Source: an uncultured Erysipelotrichaceae bacterium
GTDB lineage: Bacteria; Bacillota_I; Bacilli_A; Erysipelotrichales; Erysipelotrichaceae
DNA: 40,010 nucleotides
Assembly: GCA_945877405.1 (NCBI GenBank)
Contig: CAMCSA010000018.1
Coordinates: 1-40,010 of the forward strand
Reading direction: 5' to 3'
Below, one piece after another: positions 5,099-27,378 of this stretch (position 1 is the stretch's first letter; each line of letters opens with the position of its first letter). Under the pieces are notes generated by a model. That model saw only the letters and a program-made list of their open reading frames with translations. It had not been told where the DNA came from and did not search any database. The position numbers were made by a program, and so were the translations under genes.

Positions 5099-5149
5099 AT
5101 TTTTCACAAATTGGAAAAATCATGATTTCTGTTTTTACTACCATATAAT
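5099..5149 (+). promoter_or_regulatory. Glucosidase promoter with RpiR-type dyad (site C)
   Basis: A TATAAT lies at 5144-5149, with no good -35 at 16-18 bases. Centred about 35 bases upstream of it is the dyad TTTTC-ACAAATT-GGAAA (5101-5117, with extra symmetric A/T out to 5099-5120). It matches dyads at 22907-22925 and 26388-26406. A weak -35 plus an upstream operator suggests activation. A second palindrome, AAATCATGATTT, lies at 5117-5128 between the dyad and the -10. Confidence 0.5.
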
Positions 5150-5172: not shown

Positions 5173-6648
<1,476 letters not shown>

Positions 6649-20896: not shown

Positions 20897-21382
20897 ATGC
20901 ATATGAAACAAATGCAGAACAACACATGGAAAGAAAAAGCTCACTGGGTGATCGTATTTCTTTATATCTTATGGATCTTTTCCAATTCTCTGATGAATGG
21001 AAATGTTTCTTCTGACACATCAGGCTCAATTACACGCCAAATTCTCGCATTTTTGGCATTTTTTGGCATCAATCCAACCTATGATGTGTTTCATCACTTC
21101 ATCCGTAAACTTGCTCACTTTCTGGAATATACACTTTTAGGATTGCTGACTACTTTTTCCATATTCCGCAAATCACTGTTTTCTTCAGAAAAAATGACAT
21201 GGGTTTTCATCTGTGTTCTGACACCATTATTGGATGAATGTCTGCAGCTGTTTGTCCCAGGAAGAAGCGGTGCTTTTACCGATTCACTGCTCGATCTTTG
21301 CGGATGTATTTTCGGAACGCTGTTTCTGCTGATGATCCAAAAACTGTTTTCCTGTTATTTCCAAAAGAAAACGGGAGATTAA
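20897..21382 (+). CDS. VanZ-like family membrane protein
   Basis: A protein of about 161 residues with four hydrophobic segments. It has the VanZ-like landmarks: a first helix ending WIFSNSLMNGN, HHFIRKLAHFLEYTLLGLL in the middle, and LLDECLQLFVPGRSGAFTDSLLDLCG before the last helix. The family is linked to teicoplanin resistance in VanZ itself, but for most members the role is unknown. Three ATGs (20897, 20903, 20912) are close together with no ribosome binding site; 20903 would sit where a leaderless transcript begins. It is divergent from the second YitT gene and convergent with the RpiR gene. Confidence 0.87.
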   Translation: MHMKQMQNNTWKEKAHWVIVFLYILWIFSNSLMNGNVSSDTSGSITRQILAFLAFFGINPTYDVFHHFIRKLAHFLEYTLLGLLTTFSIFRKSLFSSEKMTWVFICVLTPLLDECLQLFVPGRSGAFTDSLLDLCGCIFGTLFLLMIQKLFSCYFQKKTGD

Positions 21383-21397: not shown

Positions 21398-22201
21398 TCA
21401 TTCCTCATCCAGCATTGCCTGCTTCCTTCTGGCATAGCCTGAAGCAATCATGCCGGCAATCGCATTGAGCGGATATGGATGACTTGCATAATTTCCATCA
21501 CTGATGTAGCGGATATAATGATCAACGTATGGCTGACGGATTTTCTGATTGGAAGTGATGACATAGATCATCGGTTTATTACGTGGTGAAGTAAAGGCAT
21601 TACGGTTTGCAAAGGCTCTTCGGAAATAGGTGCCCGATTCAGAAAAAACGATGATCAGCTCCTTTTCATCCGCATTGCGGATATGCTCAATCTGATCCGC
21701 GAACTGCATGCATGTGAAGATGATCTTTCTGCTTGTCTGCAGATCGTACTGTAGATTCAGCGCAACATTTTCAGACTGCAGATAGCCAAAGGCAGATACC
21801 TTTTCATACCGGAAGATATCACTGATTAAAGAGTCAATTTCCTTATGATCCACGCTGTTTTTCATGGATGTCAGATTAGTAATGATCTGCTCTACATATG
21901 CATGATACGGATCTTCAGCATCCTCACCCGGATATCTGAATTTATGTGCTACCGTATACGGATGTTCCACCTGGTATTTCGCAACCTGATTACGCAACTC
22001 ATTATAGTCCTGCAACCCGATGGCACGGCAGAATCTAGAAATACTGGAATTGGATACATAACACTTTCGGGCAAGATCTGAAATGGATACATTTTCCAGC
22101 TCATCAATGTGTTCAAGAATATATTTGGCGATACGGTTGTTGTTGGAGTCAGCAGATTCACTGTTCATTAATGACAGAAGAATAATCGCAAGATTAAACA
22201 C
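21398..22201 (-). CDS. RpiR/MurR family transcriptional regulator
   Basis: A 267-residue regulator with the N-terminal RpiR helix-turn-helix (ISDLARKCYVSNSSISRFCRAIG, residues about 40-65) and a C-terminal SIS domain that senses sugar phosphates. The frame starts at GTG (22201), supported by GAGG at eight bases; no ATG fits better. It is co-transcribed with the RDD membrane gene. The YieK-like sugar-phosphate gene diverges upstream, with an operator-like dyad in between, and the same dyad recurs at a glucosidase and a PTS gene. It is therefore the prime candidate for regulator of that set. Members of this family can repress or activate. Confidence 0.9.
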   Translation of the reverse strand: MFNLAIILLSLMNSESADSNNNRIAKYILEHIDELENVSISDLARKCYVSNSSISRFCRAIGLQDYNELRNQVAKYQVEHPYTVAHKFRYPGEDAEDPYHAYVEQIITNLTSMKNSVDHKEIDSLISDIFRYEKVSAFGYLQSENVALNLQYDLQTSRKIIFTCMQFADQIEHIRNADEKELIIVFSESGTYFRRAFANRNAFTSPRNKPMIYVITSNQKIRQPYVDHYIRYISDGNYASHPYPLNAIAGMIASGYARRKQAMLDEE

Positions 22202-22233: not shown

Positions 22234-22833
22234 TTATAATGCCCGGACGACTACTGTACTGCCAATTTTATCATGAATTGCACGGCTTTTCTTATCAAAC
22301 ATTGCAACAATCATCGAAGCGACTGTCACAATATAGCTCAGATACTTTACCGGCGTGAATAACGATACAAATCCGAATAGAGGAAGCAGCTGTCGCAGAT
22401 ATGTACCGATGACAGAAAACCCACCTTCTACAATTCCCGCACCAATGACTTCACGCTTTATCATATCCCACAAAGATACCTCGTTACCATCCATGCGAAT
22501 GACCCGAATACCACAGATCTTTTTTCCAAGCGTCTGTCCCTGCCATATAAAACATGGAACAGCGACATAATACAGAAAAGCCAGAACAAAAACGATGCCT
22601 GCAAATATCAGTCCCTTTTCCATCCCGTATGTTGATAGTTCAAACGATCCGGTATGGATATTTTCTCCTCCACGTAACCAGAATGTTACCGGAATGGCTG
22701 CCAGTACACTGGCAACATACCAGTCAATGATGACAGCGCCTGCTCTACGCACTTTCAGCTTCAGCGGATCATACATTCCGATGGACAGTTCATTTGCTTT
22801 TTTCTGATGTTTCCCAGTCTTTTTCTTACCCAT
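22234..22833 (-). CDS. RDD family membrane protein
   Basis: A 199-residue protein with a basic N-terminus and the RDD signature: RRAGAVIIDWYVASVL in the first helix (Arg-Asp pattern) and GQTLGKKICGIRVIRMDG after the second. Three or four membrane segments are visible. The function of the family is largely unknown; some members are proposed ion antiporters. I use the ATG at 22833; an in-frame GTG two codons upstream is closer to GGAAG and may be used instead. It precedes rpiR by 32 bases, an unusual pairing. Confidence 0.86.
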   Translation of the reverse strand: MGKKKTGKHQKKANELSIGMYDPLKLKVRRAGAVIIDWYVASVLAAIPVTFWLRGGENIHTGSFELSTYGMEKGLIFAGIVFVLAFLYYVAVPCFIWQGQTLGKKICGIRVIRMDGNEVSLWDMIKREVIGAGIVEGGFSVIGTYLRQLLPLFGFVSLFTPVKYLSYIVTVASMIVAMFDKKSRAIHDKIGSTVVVRAL

Positions 22834-22906
22834 ATGCACTCATCTTCCTTTTTCGAGTTCATTATATGAAATGTTCGTTTTCAAAGCCTACCAGTCCCTG
22901 AAAATC

Positions 22907-22957
22907 ATTTCCACGTTATGGAAATCGCATTGATTTTACAATGAGAAATCCTATACT
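22907..22957 (+). promoter_or_regulatory. Promoter of the YieK-like gene with RpiR-type dyad (site A)
   Basis: TTGATT (22930-22935), a 16-base spacer and TATACT (22952-22957) form a good promoter. Four bases above the -35 lies the perfect dyad ATTTCC-ACGTTAT-GGAAAT (22907-22925), centred about 48 bases before the predicted start. This is a position suited to an activator touching polymerase. The dyad lies in the region shared with the divergent RDD-rpiR operon. Confidence 0.68.
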
Positions 22958-23009: not shown

Positions 23010-23738
23010 ATGAAACTGATCATCGAAAAAGACGAACGCGCAATGAGTGAAAGCGCAATGCAGATTATCCTTGGCACAATGATGCAGGATAAAAGAGTCA
23101 ACGTGTCCCTGACTTCCGGACGTTCCCCAAGAATGATGTACAAGATGATGGTACCTTATGTCAAGGATCAGAAGAAGTTCGAAGACATCAACTACTACCT
23201 GTTTGACGAAGCACCATATATCGGTGAACGTGCTGGTGAAAAAGGACCAAACTGGGTTGAAATGCAGGAACTGTTCTTCAAGGATGCAAATATCCCGGAT
23301 GAAAGAGTACACTGCCCTGATTTTGACAACTGGCAGACATGGGATGAAGATATCCGTCAGGCTGGCGGCATCGATGTCATGCTGATCGGTCTTGGATGGG
23401 ATGGCCACTTCTGTTCCAACTGCCCAAGATGTACACCAATGGACGGCTACACATATGCATGCGACAGAAAGGTCAAGAATGCTGTAAACCCAACATATCC
23501 TGACCGTCCACTGCAGCCGTATTCCATCACAATGGGTCCTAAGTCTTTGATGAGAGTCAAGCACCTTGTCATGATTGTCAATGGTAAGGAAAAGGCTGAA
23601 ATCTTCAAGAAATTCCTGACAGAACCGATCAGTGATGAAATTCCTGCAACAGTTCTGAGACTTCATCCTAACTTCACAGTCATCGCTGATGAAGAAGCAG
23701 CTTCCTTAATTACAGAAGAAGATCTTAAAGGTCTTTAA
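23010..23738 (+). CDS. NagB/6-phosphogluconolactonase-fold sugar phosphate protein, YieK-like
   Basis: A 242-residue member of the glucosamine-6-phosphate deaminase/6-phosphogluconolactonase fold. Seen: phosphate loop LTSGRSP, FDEAPY (Asp66), GLGWDGHF with Asp131 and His133, MGPKSLM, and PATVLRLHPN near the end. Against NagB, the catalytic Glu148 position is Cys138, so a standard deaminase reaction is doubtful; it also lacks the lactonase-type SLFP. The pattern recalls E. coli YieK, an uncharacterised protein near beta-glucoside genes (from memory, not searched). A cysteine run C135-x2-C138-x2-C141 borders the active site. AAAGGAGA precedes the ATG. It is monocistronic with its own terminator and shares an operator motif with a glucosidase and a PTS gene. 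Confidence 0.82.
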   Translation: MKLIIEKDERAMSESAMQIILGTMMQDKRVNVSLTSGRSPRMMYKMMVPYVKDQKKFEDINYYLFDEAPYIGERAGEKGPNWVEMQELFFKDANIPDERVHCPDFDNWQTWDEDIRQAGGIDVMLIGLGWDGHFCSNCPRCTPMDGYTYACDRKVKNAVNPTYPDRPLQPYSITMGPKSLMRVKHLVMIVNGKEKAEIFKKFLTEPISDEIPATVLRLHPNFTVIADEEAASLITEEDLKGL

Positions 23739-23853: not shown

Positions 23854-24789
23854 TTACAGCACACAACCAAGCAGAAATGCCTGCTTTCTGACAGCATCCA
23901 CACTCATATGCAGAACAGCACAGATGCTTTCCACAGGAATATTCGCTTCAATCATTCCACGCAGATAAATATTTCTTTCCTGTTCTGCTTCCTGCCTTGC
24001 ACGTTCCAATTCCTTCTTCAAGCTTTCTGCTTCCTGATTCTGTCTTTCTGCTTCCTTCTTCTGTTCTTCAGCACGCTTATTCGCCTTCTCAATTTCCATC
24101 TTCAGCTTCTTTTCTCTTTGTGCTGCCCTGGCTCTTTCTTCTTTTCTTGTTTCTGCCTGCAACTGTCTGATCTTATCGCACATGATTTCTTTCCTGTCTC
24201 CTTTCTTTGTTCTTCTGCAGCTTTCCCGTAATACCGGATTGACGATCTTTCTGTAATCCTTCTGTACAAGATCTCTGCACAATACTGAAATCGGATCATT
24301 CCCCTGGTTTTCTTTGACATTGACATAGATGATTTCTCCATAAGGAATAACACCCTGATCCGTATTCTTCCACTTTGTTACTGAACGGGATAAAGACTGG
24401 CCTGTCTTTGCCCCATCTCCTCTTGTAAAGCATATCACAGTTCTATTTGGAATCTGCGAATACGTTGTGCCGGATTGTACAATGATATTTGATACCATAT
24501 CGCTGTAGTACTGCATCCTTGGAACTTTTGCACGGGTTGGATTGTTCTCTACTTCAATCACGTACACATTTCCATGATCATCTACAGCGAATACATCCAT
24601 GATAATCTTCTTACCTCGTGTATTCAGTACTGTTTTCTGTGTTGTGGCACTGATAATGGTAACTTTGCGCTGTAATACCGTACTGACTAGAATACTGATG
24701 GCTTCCGTATTGCCATCCAGAGCTACCGTCATAAATGTATCGTCCATAAGACACATGTTCTTGAGTATTTTTTCTTCTTTAGAAAGCAT
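23854..24789 (-). CDS. Rpn/PD-(D/E)XK nuclease-type transposase-like protein
   Basis: A 311-residue protein of the group annotated as Rpn recombination-promoting nuclease or PD-(D/E)XK transposase-like. The nuclease core is visible as KKIIMDVFAVDDHGNVYVIEVEN (Asp ... Glu-x-Glu) and RMQYYSDMV. Residues about 200-280 form a highly charged coiled coil rich in Glu, Lys and Arg, and the end resembles a small helix-turn-helix (VESICAVLHMSVDAVRKQA). I start it at the ATG at 24789, which has GGAGG ten bases upstream. There are no inverted repeats or target duplications around it, so mobility is not supported. Such genes are often multicopy in gut Bacillota. Confidence 0.82.
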   Translation of the reverse strand: MLSKEEKILKNMCLMDDTFMTVALDGNTEAISILVSTVLQRKVTIISATTQKTVLNTRGKKIIMDVFAVDDHGNVYVIEVENNPTRAKVPRMQYYSDMVSNIIVQSGTTYSQIPNRTVICFTRGDGAKTGQSLSRSVTKWKNTDQGVIPYGEIIYVNVKENQGNDPISVLCRDLVQKDYRKIVNPVLRESCRRTKKGDRKEIMCDKIRQLQAETRKEERARAAQREKKLKMEIEKANKRAEEQKKEAERQNQEAESLKKELERARQEAEQERNIYLRGMIEANIPVESICAVLHMSVDAVRKQAFLLGCVL

Positions 24790-24848
24790 AACTGATTTTC
24801 CTCCATTATACATATACGTAAAAAAATCAGAGATGATACATTTTTCCT

Positions 24849-24931: not shown

Positions 24932-26308
24932 TTATGCTTCTGTGCCTTCTTCAGCAAGCTTGGACTTTTCCATCAGCTTGAAGAATGGATAGTACAGCAG
25001 CATATCCAGCAGGATCAGGCCTACAACCATGATACCAGCCTTGATATCCATGCAGCCAAGAGCTGCACCAAGTGGAGCCGGTGTTGTCCATGGTGTTTCT
25101 ACAACACCTCTGCCAATCAGATTTGTTGCCATACATGTGTAGCAGATAATGGAATTTACAACCGGTACAAATACGAATGGTACAAGCATCAGTGGATTCA
25201 ACACCATTGGAAGACCGAAGATAATCGGTTCATTGATATTGAAGATACCTGGCATGATGGAAAGTCTTCCCAGAGTCTTCAGTTCCTTTGACTTGGACAT
25301 CAGCAGCAGAATGCAAAGACCCAGTGTGGATCCGCCACCACCGATACAGATGACATAGGACCAGAATGGCTGTGTGAAGAAGTGTGTCAGAGCAGCACCT
25401 TCTGCATATGCAGAGATATTTTCAACCAGATACATCTGCATGAATGGCAGACGGATCGGCTGTGTGATGGATGCACCATGCAGACCGAAGAACCAGCAAG
25501 TTTGGGCAACGATTGTGATCAGGCAGATACCAACAAGGGAATCCAGACCGGATACTGCTGGTGCCAGAGCTGTCATGATCAGGCTTGGCAGAAGCTGACC
25601 GGACATGTTCTGAACAACAAGAGAAATGGAATAGAACAGAATAATGCAAACAAACATCGGAATGATTGCATCAAAGGAAGAAGCAATTGCCGGCGGTACG
25701 CTGTCTGGCAGCTTGATGCGGATGTTCTTCTTCAGCAGGAAGTTGATGATTTCTACGCATCCGATGGATACGATGATTGCTGTGAAGATACCCTTGGCAT
25801 CCAGATATGTTGTTGGAATGTAGGAAGCAGCACTTCCAAGAATTGTTTCAATTGTTGCACCTTCTGTGATAGCTGCTGTAGCAACTGCCTTTGTGACAGG
25901 AGATCCGACCATCAGGAATACGGCTACAGAAACAACAGCTGCGTTGAGTTCGTTAATGCCGTATCTCTTTGCCAGATGATATGCAATCGCAAAGCAGATG
26001 AACAGACCCATCAGAGCCATTGTCATGTTGTATGGCAGCTGCAGAACAGGCTTGTATGCCTGTGCCCAGTTATACCAGCCAAGCAGCATGTCACTGAAGA
26101 AGCCCCAGTCACCAAGTGTATCAGGCTTGAACGGTGGTGTGGAAATAATCAGACACAGACCACCCAGAATGGATAATGGAATTGCGACAACCATACCGTC
26201 TCTGATTGCGGACAGGTGACGTTGTGTAGCCACCTTGCTGGCAATCGGGACAAGAGTACGGTCAGCAATCTCATTAAACTTTTCCATGAATTTATCCATG
26301 AATTTCAT
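24932..26308 (-). CDS. PTS sugar transporter subunit IIC, Lac/cellobiose family
   Basis: A 458-residue membrane permease with about ten hydrophobic segments. It carries the family N-terminus (KFNEIADRTLVPIASKVATQRHLSAIRDGM), the conserved WFFGLHGAS segment and IFNINEPIIFGLPMVLNPLMLVPF, the sugar-binding loop of Lac-family EIIC. It should import cellobiose-like or aryl-beta-glucoside sugars while phosphorylating them. No IIA or IIB gene lies nearby, so it must borrow these from elsewhere. GGAGGGG precedes the ATG. It is monocistronic. The promoter carries the dyad shared with the glucosidase at 5173, the most likely downstream enzyme. Confidence 0.93.
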   Translation of the reverse strand: MKFMDKFMEKFNEIADRTLVPIASKVATQRHLSAIRDGMVVAIPLSILGGLCLIISTPPFKPDTLGDWGFFSDMLLGWYNWAQAYKPVLQLPYNMTMALMGLFICFAIAYHLAKRYGINELNAAVVSVAVFLMVGSPVTKAVATAAITEGATIETILGSAASYIPTTYLDAKGIFTAIIVSIGCVEIINFLLKKNIRIKLPDSVPPAIASSFDAIIPMFVCIILFYSISLVVQNMSGQLLPSLIMTALAPAVSGLDSLVGICLITIVAQTCWFFGLHGASITQPIRLPFMQMYLVENISAYAEGAALTHFFTQPFWSYVICIGGGGSTLGLCILLLMSKSKELKTLGRLSIMPGIFNINEPIIFGLPMVLNPLMLVPFVFVPVVNSIICYTCMATNLIGRGVVETPWTTPAPLGAALGCMDIKAGIMVVGLILLDMLLYYPFFKLMEKSKLAEEGTEA

Positions 26309-26335: not shown

Positions 26336-26406
26336 ATTATAGGGATTCCCTATACGGAATTCAGCAGTTTTTCAGATGTGAAAAACCATTTCCACACATT
26401 GAAAAT
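26336..26406 (-). promoter_or_regulatory. PTS EIIC promoter with RpiR-type dyad (site B)
   Basis: On the minus strand TATAAT at 26341-26336 has no good -35. The dyad ATTTCC-ACACATT-GAAAAT (26388-26406) is centred about 56 bases above the -10, some 20 bases further than the equivalent sites at 5101 and 22907. Two helical turns of extra distance would keep it on the same DNA face, as seen with activators. Confidence 0.55.
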
Positions 26407-26504
26407 CATTATATTTCAAAGGAATGATCCATGTAGAATCAGGGCATATCATCAGACGTATATCCCCATGGTGATCGCCCTTTCCGACTTCTAAACGCAT
26501 GTTT

Positions 26505-26803
26505 TCAATCCTGTATGAACATGCCATCTTCAATATGCAGTACGATATCCGCACTTCTTGCGATATCAAGGTCGTGGGTTACCAGAATAATAAGAGGATT
26601 ACACTGATCCCTGACTTCCATAAGAAGATGCAGAACAGATATTCCGGCCTTGTCATGAATGCTCTACCGATTGCAGTTTTCTGCTGTTGTCCACCGAACA
26701 GCTGATCAGGATATTTATTTTCAATTTCTCTGATCTGCAGTCTGTTGAGAATCACACCAACCTGCATATTCTTTTCGCTCAAAGATTTACGGATGATATT
26801 CAT
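26505..26803 (-). pseudogene. Remnant of an ABC transporter ATP-binding protein
   Basis: The first part (26803 downward, ATG with AAAGGAGG upstream) encodes NRLQIREIENKYPDQLFGG and QQQKTAIGRAFMTRPEYL, a decayed ABC signature region. In another frame about 25 codons on, LIILVTHDLDIARSADIVLH and IEDGMFIQD end at a TGA (26507-26505), the H-loop region of a LolD/SalX-type ATPase. Walker A is missing, and Walker B (DEPTGNLD) has been deleted at the frame change. It therefore cannot bind ATP and is a relic. No partner permease remains nearby. The retained strong ribosome binding site means a 74-residue peptide could still be made. Confidence 0.75.
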
Positions 26804-26860
26804 GATGAAACCTCCTTTCCATAAAAGTACATCTGTAATCTTACAATCAGGTGAAAGAGG

Positions 26861-26887
26861 AAAAAAGCCATTGTGTACTTCACAATG
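26861..26887 (-). terminator. Terminator of the trpXYZ-ybaK operon
   Basis: On the minus strand CATTGTG-AAGTA-CACAATG (26887-26869) is followed by GC and six T's. It lies just past the YbaK stop codon. Confidence 0.88.
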
Positions 26888-26892
26888 ACCTG

Positions 26893-27378
26893 TTATTCCA
26901 CCGCAATCGCGGCATATTTTCCATCAATCAGTTCAATCAGATCAGACGGATTCAATTCCACCTGAAGTCCTACTTTACCACCGGATACACAGATCGTATC
27001 AAACAGCTGTGCTGTTTCATCAATCCATGTTGGAAACTGTTTCTTCATTCCAATCGGAGAACAGCCACCATGAATATATCCTGTTGTCGGCAACAGTGTT
27101 TTCTGCGGTATCATTTCCACACTTTTCACGCCTGCCGCTCTAGCGCAGGCCTTGAGATCCAGTTTCTGATTTCCAGGAACAACAAACACATAATGGTTTC
27201 TGTCGTTTCCAATTGTAACAAGTGTCTTAAATACCTGATCGGGATCCTGATTCAGTTTCTCTGCGACCGTTACCGCATCCAGTTTTCCATCTTCCGTATC
27301 ATACACATGCACCTGGTAGTCTATCCCTGCTTCATCCAGCATCCGCATGGCATTTGTTTTCGTTTCCTTCTTCGCCAT
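26893..27378 (-). CDS. ybaK: Cys-tRNA(Pro)/Cys-tRNA(Cys) deacylase, YbaK/EbsC family
   Basis: A 161-residue editing protein that hydrolyses mischarged Cys-tRNA(Pro). Features: KTNAMRMLDEAGIDYQVHVYD at the start, QVFKTLVTIGN with the conserved lysine, YVFVVPGNQKLDLKACARAAG, and GYIHGGCSPIGMKK, all typical of YbaK. The ATG at 27378 comes one base after the TrpZ-like stop, and the longer start at 27408 lies in that gene. It is the last gene of the T-box-controlled operon, so its level may follow tryptophan supply even though its substrate is unrelated. Confidence 0.93.
   Translation of the reverse strand: MAKKETKTNAMRMLDEAGIDYQVHVYDTEDGKLDAVTVAEKLNQDPDQVFKTLVTIGNDRNHYVFVVPGNQKLDLKACARAAGVKSVEMIPQKTLLPTTGYIHGGCSPIGMKKQFPTWIDETAQLFDTICVSGGKVGLQVELNPSDLIELIDGKYAAIAVE

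Follow-up and report, generated by a model that had tools for sequence, protein, structure and literature searches.

Three palindromes in the window (the whole stretch of 40,010 nucleotides that was analysed, contig C18 in a draft genome of 2.13 Mb) are, judging from sequence comparison, very probably operators of a single RpiR subfamily that would switch on the use of plant beta-glucosides. They would be the sites from which an RpiR-family protein acts as a promoter-proximal activator; the likeliest candidate, P0006, is encoded in the window itself, and we give this explanation as a whole a probability of about 0.8. The connection with an RpiR-type regulator, already proposed in the initial annotation, is now sustained by the conserved linkage of the operator to EIIC, yieK and rpiR, by the presence of the operator at the operons of a sister clade, by a spacing of 36-37 bp to the -10 box and by co-occurrence across genomes. 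Gut Firmicutes encode many RpiR proteins, few of which, to our knowledge, have a known operator, and the mode of action of the activating ones is unsettled. On the present reading, orphan cellobiose-type EIIC genes gain a regulator, and one switch is predicted to be common to DJ-1/PfpI, DUF1275 and MATE genes; with an operator defined at sequence level, a rigid geometry and cultured species (Longibaculum muris, Faecalibacillus intestinalis), the activation mechanism becomes directly testable.

The consensus operator is a 19-bp palindrome, ATTTYCA-N5-TGRAAAT, with arms of 7 bp and a spacer of 5 bp (Table 1). The initial annotation had described three 17-bp dyads, all of which are present where it placed them, and the 19-mer (7-5-7) register fits better than the 17-mer register. 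The degenerate partner dyad of operator 2 lies at a distance of 20 bp from it, matching the tandem operators of relatives. The generally known consensus sequences of CRP/FNR, CodY and CcpA do not fit an odd 7-5-7 palindrome with TTTCC/GGAAA arms. In the window, the pattern WTTTYCA-N5-TGRAAAW occurs three times against a shuffle mean of 0.02 (none of 100 dinucleotide shuffles reached three), an expectation that flatters the pattern, since it was fitted to the same three sites. Across the draft genome, examined by pattern search and in stretches, the pattern occurs eight times against 1-4 expected under Markov models of order 2-4. A scoring matrix trained solely on the sites of other genomes ranked the three operators 1st, 3rd and 4th among about 40,000 window positions (24.7, 14.4 and 14.2 bits, respectively); random sequence did not reach 24.7 bits in 10 Mb, and a score of at least 14.4 bits is expected 0.36 times per 40 kb. 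Position 21155, second in the window with 16.6 bits, was rejected for lying within a VanZ-like ORF. Elsewhere in the genome, the perfect dyads at C20:17491 and C62:216 were set aside for want of a convincing target, and C6:45419 (15.3 bits, upstream of a transketolase gene) was left uncounted, having no -10 box at the right distance.

Table 1. Positions of the operators, promoter elements and genes of the proposed regulon in the window.
Feature	Position	Strand	Remarks
Operator 1, TTTTTCA-CAAAT-TGGAAAA	5100..5118	+	Matrix score 14.2 bits
GH1 -10 box, TATAAT	5144..5149	+	35 bp from operator 1 centre; -35 poor (3/6)
P0001, GH1 6-phospho-beta-glucosidase-like gene	5173..6648	+	PF00232, 376.7 bits
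P0006, RpiR-family regulator, proposed activator	21398..22201	-	PF01418, 58.5 bits; SIS-like predicted fold; synteny
RDD-family membrane protein, gene 1 of RDD-rpiR unit	22234..22839	-	PF06271, 74.6 bits
Partner dyad, CCTACCA-GTCCC-TGAAAAT	22887..22905	+	Degenerate, 3 mismatches; alone weak
Operator 2, ATTTCCA-CGTTA-TGGAAAT	22907..22925	+	Perfect 7-5-7 palindrome; top window site, 24.7 bits
yieK -10 box, TATACT	22952..22957	+	36 bp from operator 2 centre; -35 TTGATT, 22930-22935
P0002, YieK/NagB-like gene	23010..23738	+	PF01182, 57.8 bits; NF009022, 239.5 bits (cut-off 247)
P0003, lactose/cellobiose-family PTS EIIC	24932..26308	-	TIGR00410, 377.8 bits (cut-off 236)
EIIC -10 box, TATAAT	26336..26341	-	35.5 bp below proximal dyad, 56 bp below operator 3
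Proximal EIIC dyad, TTTTTCA-GATG-TGAAAAA (7-4-7)	26368..26385	-	Tandem shared with relative G041
Operator 3, ATTTCCA-CACAT-TGAAAAT	26388..26406	-	Distal dyad of EIIC promoter

Operators 1, 2 and 3 precede P0001, P0002 and P0003, respectively. The best NCBIfam models for P0001 are 6-phospho-beta-glucosidases, with scores under the model cut-offs. The EIIC protein P0003 is an orphan, since the only lactose/cellobiose EIIA gene of the genome is situated on contig C6, with an EIIB gene adjacent; P0003 presumably borrows these EIIA and EIIB proteins, and no dyad was found at the EIIB-EIIA genes of C6. Contrary to the initial annotation, the rpiR gene, though near the middle site, does not adjoin it: in the divergent RDD-rpiR unit the RDD gene comes first and separates the two. 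The RDD-rpiR pair is kept in several relatives.

Loci of relatives were found by alignment-query search of genome contigs, many of the compared genomes being metagenome assemblies; with P0006 alone as query, none was found. In relative G041, EIIC (-) diverges from a yieK-rpiR unit (+) whose RpiR and YieK are 52% and 76% identical to those of the window; its EIIC/yieK gap contains the tandem TTTTTCACAACAGAAAAA GT CTTTCCATTTTTTGGAAAT (18-mer, 2 bp, 19-mer), and the window EIIC promoter carries the matching tandem TTTTTCAGATGTGAAAAA CC ATTTCCACACATTGAAAAT. Longibaculum muris, Ca. Stoquefichus, Faecalibacillus, Thomasclavelia and Erysipelatoclostridium display the order EIIC <- dyads -> yieK - [dyad] - RDD - rpiR, the dyads of the EIIC/yieK gap often being two and 20 bp apart, with some copies degenerate or missing. 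In L. muris a dyad is found at all three units, each with its -10 box at 36-37 bp; in Ca. Stoquefichus S9_Bin2, yieK and RDD-rpiR diverge from the dyads in the same orientation as in the window. Variants include an EIIC gene paired with GH4 and RDD-rpiR (L241) and a GH1 gene beside EIIC (L240). The conservation in relatives that the initial annotation had called for is hence strong, the palindromic operator being found at the linked EIIC, yieK and RDD-rpiR promoters. Given this conserved locus, the most suitable view of the window is that it contains the locus in rearranged form, with a PD-(D/E)XK gene between yieK and EIIC. Operator 1 is included on its sequence and spacing, as no orthologous GH1 promoter occurred among the examined loci.

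The palindrome also extends to a second type of locus. A sister clade of the P0006 RpiR subfamily, as placed by the tree, is encoded across the genus in pfpI-(pfpI)-rpiR operons, the promoters of which carry palindromes of the type ATTTCC-N7-GGAAAT. A composite search of 60 genomes (palindrome plus a -10 box at 35-37 bp) returned 65 matches in the 25 genomes with a P0006-type or pfpI-type RpiR versus 13 in the 35 genomes without it, and the reversed-pattern control gave 11 in each group. When the rpiR operons themselves were excluded, 34 versus 13 matches remained (P about 1e-5), with genome grouping and operon exclusions entered by hand and P values that ignore phylogeny. Further targets of this search were DUF1275 membrane proteins (divergent from pfpI operons), lone pfpI genes and MATE exporters; at L214, a single dyad separates a lone pfpI from a divergent GH1 gene, a pair that would join the two sister regulons. 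No operator was seen in the examined loci of the C10-type RpiR clade, close by tree, and G002 and G064, judged to hold RpiR of the C10 type only, had no composite match. Tentatively, and at less than even odds, two sister regulons may share one RpiR operator and one rigid promoter geometry in no fewer than two groups of Erysipelotrichales from the gut, the former regulon comprising the beta-glucoside PTS (EIIC, yieK, GH1/GH4), and the latter DJ-1/PfpI, DUF1275 (YoaK-type) and MATE proteins, which may handle toxic aglycones or glycating sugars from beta-glucoside use. Literature searches found no RpiR-PfpI regulon, nor any of the kind in Erysipelotrichaceae.

The distances of 35, 36 and 56 bp between dyad centres and -10 boxes, as measured in the initial annotation, proved exact, although at the EIIC promoter a nearer dyad, centred 35.5 bp from the -10 box, had been overlooked. 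The value of 56 bp is the sum of 35.5 and 20.5: the proximal dyad is canonically positioned and the distal one lies two turns above it, so the odd EIIC distance is that of a tandem operator, as at the tandem sites of relatives. Among 14 pfpI loci, picked by their dyad and not by their spacing, the dyad centre lies 36 bp from the -10 box in 12 and 35 bp in the other two; in 30 units outside this genome, TANNNT is found at 36-37 bp from the dyad centre 22 times versus 1.1 expected. The edge of the dyad is situated 3-4 bp from the -35 position, the dyad being wholly upstream of it. The -35 boxes of pfpI promoters match on average 2.8 of 6 positions versus 2.6 for random sequence, and those of GH1 and MATE promoters are likewise about as poor as chance; the EIIC, yieK and RDD promoters have fair -35 boxes (mean 3.9/6), and strict activator dependence may thus be absent there. 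A dyad upstream of -35, a single phased distance and a weak -35 box together point to the geometry of a promoter-proximal (class II-like) activator, with the site next to -35 at a fixed distance from -10, and the fixed spacing with poor -35 boxes suggests activation and not repression. The proposal of one activator acting from a constant position thereby gains comparative support from a spacing that holds across loci. The window RDD-rpiR promoter, with its -10 box 50 bp from operator 2, departs from the 36-37 bp rule. In relatives, a clear -10 box at 36-37 bp is also missing from certain promoters of EIIC and yieK (L242, L246, L247).

Which protein reads the palindrome admits more than one answer. 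On contig C21 the genome encodes another RpiR of the superclade, RpiR2, behind a perfect operator of its own, TTTTCCATGAAATGGAAAT, in a pfpI-rpiR unit, so that P0006 need not bind every site. The window sites could then be bound mainly by RpiR2, or by RpiR2 and P0006 together, with the beta-glucoside genes and the pfpI unit forming one regulon; the promoters of the RpiR2 clade carry the palindrome and L214 has one dyad common to GH1 and pfpI, but the EIIC-yieK locus of relatives is linked to P0006 orthologues and not to RpiR2 orthologues, and we consider this reading possible though doubtful. It is quite improbable that the palindrome is the target of some other, unlinked regulator and that the proximity of rpiR is incidental: only two of the 12 RpiR genes of the genome have a perfect dyad beside them, as such a regulator would allow, yet in two locus types of different gene content the palindrome and an RpiR of the one subfamily are all that is common, and genomes without that subfamily show no excess of sites. 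Regarding the three dyads as chance AT-rich inverted repeats would accord with the frequency of one-mismatch sites (50 genome-wide), which are mostly intragenic in the sample examined and for that reason unusable as regulon members. Their enrichment over the reversed-pattern control (58 versus 7) was rejected as compositional, since G041, without any perfect site, shows an equal one (40 versus 5). The initial annotation had held that many random hits inside genes would speak against the operators; such hits do occur among the one-mismatch sites, but all eight pattern-perfect sites of the genome are intergenic. Chance is contradicted by conservation, spacing and matrix ranking, is ruled out for operators 2 and 3 by their conservation in relatives, and is scarcely credible for the set.

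The sign of the regulation can also be argued both ways. Sites of the same RpiR subfamily might serve repression, an RpiR protein upstream of -35 blocking the polymerase until a sugar phosphate releases it; RpiR repressors that bind two adjacent sites are exemplified by MurR of Escherichia coli and NanR of Vibrio vulnificus (PMC12713135), and the fair -35 boxes of the EIIC, yieK and RDD promoters (3.9/6) would suit such a role. However, one phased distance of 36-37 bp over unrelated promoters, with dyads wholly above -35, would be superfluous for a roadblock, and the poor -35 boxes of the pfpI, GH1 and MATE promoters are near chance level; repression is hence unlikely, and activation by an RpiR-family protein, most likely P0006, is preferred.

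P0006 has an N-terminal HTH_6 (rpiR) domain (PF01418, 58.5 bits; cut-off 28.3). Pfam called no SIS domain at 0.001, a SIS-like domain being seen in the predicted fold only: the predicted model matches full-length NanR and RccR with E about 1e-13, and the SIS domains of MurR with a target TM of 0.7-0.8. A loop of the S-x-[ST]-G-[ST] type is retained in most of 14 homologues, and together with the SIS-like predicted fold it implies a sugar phosphate as the putative ligand. The inducer is likely a 6-phospho-beta-glucoside, given the gene set (cellobiose-type EIIC, 6-phospho-beta-glucosidase and YieK); of the two sugars suggested in the initial annotation, a beta-glucoside would be preferred over an amino sugar. 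In the proposed mechanism, a P0006 dimer would sit on the 19-bp palindrome, whose centre lies about 48 bp upstream of the inferred transcription start and whose edge comes within 3-4 bp of the -35 hexamer; from there the dimer would recruit RNA polymerase to promoters with a weak -35 box. At promoters of the EIIC/yieK type, the spacing of the tandem dyads by 20 bp (two turns) would allow two dimers or a tetramer to bind one face. Binding of a phosphorylated PTS product, e.g., cellobiose-6-phosphate, by the SIS domain would then turn on EIIC, 6-phospho-beta-glucosidase and YieK. P0006 or its Longibaculum orthologue would be expected to bind a ATTTCCACGTTATGGAAAT duplex in a manner dependent on the arms.

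Among described systems, ClaR of Lactococcus lactis IL1403 is an RpiR activator of celB (EIIC) and bglS that depends on cellobiose-6-phosphate, thus an activating member of the family whose targets are an EIIC apart from EIIA/EIIB and a 6-phospho-beta-glucosidase (PMC4286628, in the portions available). The window shares this arrangement, with an orphan EIIC and a 6-phospho-beta-glucosidase as targets and EIIA/EIIB encoded apart; by analogy of regulator family and targets, its system would work like that of ClaR as presented in those portions. RpiR activators of cellobiose PTS genes are therefore known already, and the same portions describe no operator, YieK, RDD or pfpI-type sister regulon (PMC4286628); measured against them, the new elements are a defined operator next to -35 at a rigid, fixed spacing, the YieK/RDD linkage and the DJ-1/PfpI-DUF1275-MATE sister regulon. 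SpNanR, the RpiR protein that activates nan operon-I and siaA in Streptococcus pneumoniae (PMC12713135), resembles P0006 in its overall fold (Foldseek E about 1e-12) and in recognizing a near-palindromic site, of 18 bp. A helper half-site has been proposed about 23 bp from the SpNanR palindrome (PMC12713135), just as the window system has tandem dyads 20 bp apart. The SpNanR consensus, TCTGAAACTACTTTCAAA, differs from the window palindrome. Furthermore, the SpNanR site is located about 55 bp above -35 (PMC12713135), while the window dyad nearly abuts -35 and keeps a single rigid spacing, an arrangement suggestive of direct recruitment. GlvR (Bacillus subtilis) and GlaR (L. lactis) are also RpiR activators of sugar genes in Gram-positive bacteria, for other sugars (PMC6528599). 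In E. coli, yieK (bglK) is presumed to be part of the aryl-beta-glucoside PTS bgl operon together with a phospho-beta-glucosidase, the control of which includes the BglG antiterminator and H-NS, with no part played by an RpiR protein (PMC2646131).

Several minor observations accompany these loci. The gene between yieK and EIIC (23854-24813, minus strand) belongs to a PD-(D/E)XK transposase family (Rpn-like, below the Pfam cut-off), and contig C28 has a near-identical copy (L231:2673-3656), with another dyad some 600 bp away. Degenerate remnants resembling an ABC-transporter ATP-binding gene are located above the EIIC promoter (26400-27000, minus strand). Two further yieK paralogues occur in the genome, on contigs C9 (L139) and C19 (L140), 68% and 62% identical, respectively; the former has a dyad (L139:9679-9697) about 92 bp above its start codon, and the latter has none. 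On contig C2, a perfect dyad, 57 bp upstream of a -10 box, is followed by an 84-aa ORF assigned to no Pfam family (L065:8481-8735) and then by a second GH1 gene, with which the ORF appears to form one transcription unit. A single 512-aa ORF on contig C23 (L059:6553-8091) has two RpiR-type HTH matches, possibly a fused RpiR regulator, and adjoins a PTS EIIC gene and an apparent 6-phospho-glycosidase gene. Finally, the DUF1275 genes of L198, L199, L200, L201 and L222 diverge from pfpI-containing operons across a single palindrome that is flanked on either side by a -10 box, each at 35-37 bp; this may be a symmetric promoter switch working in both directions.
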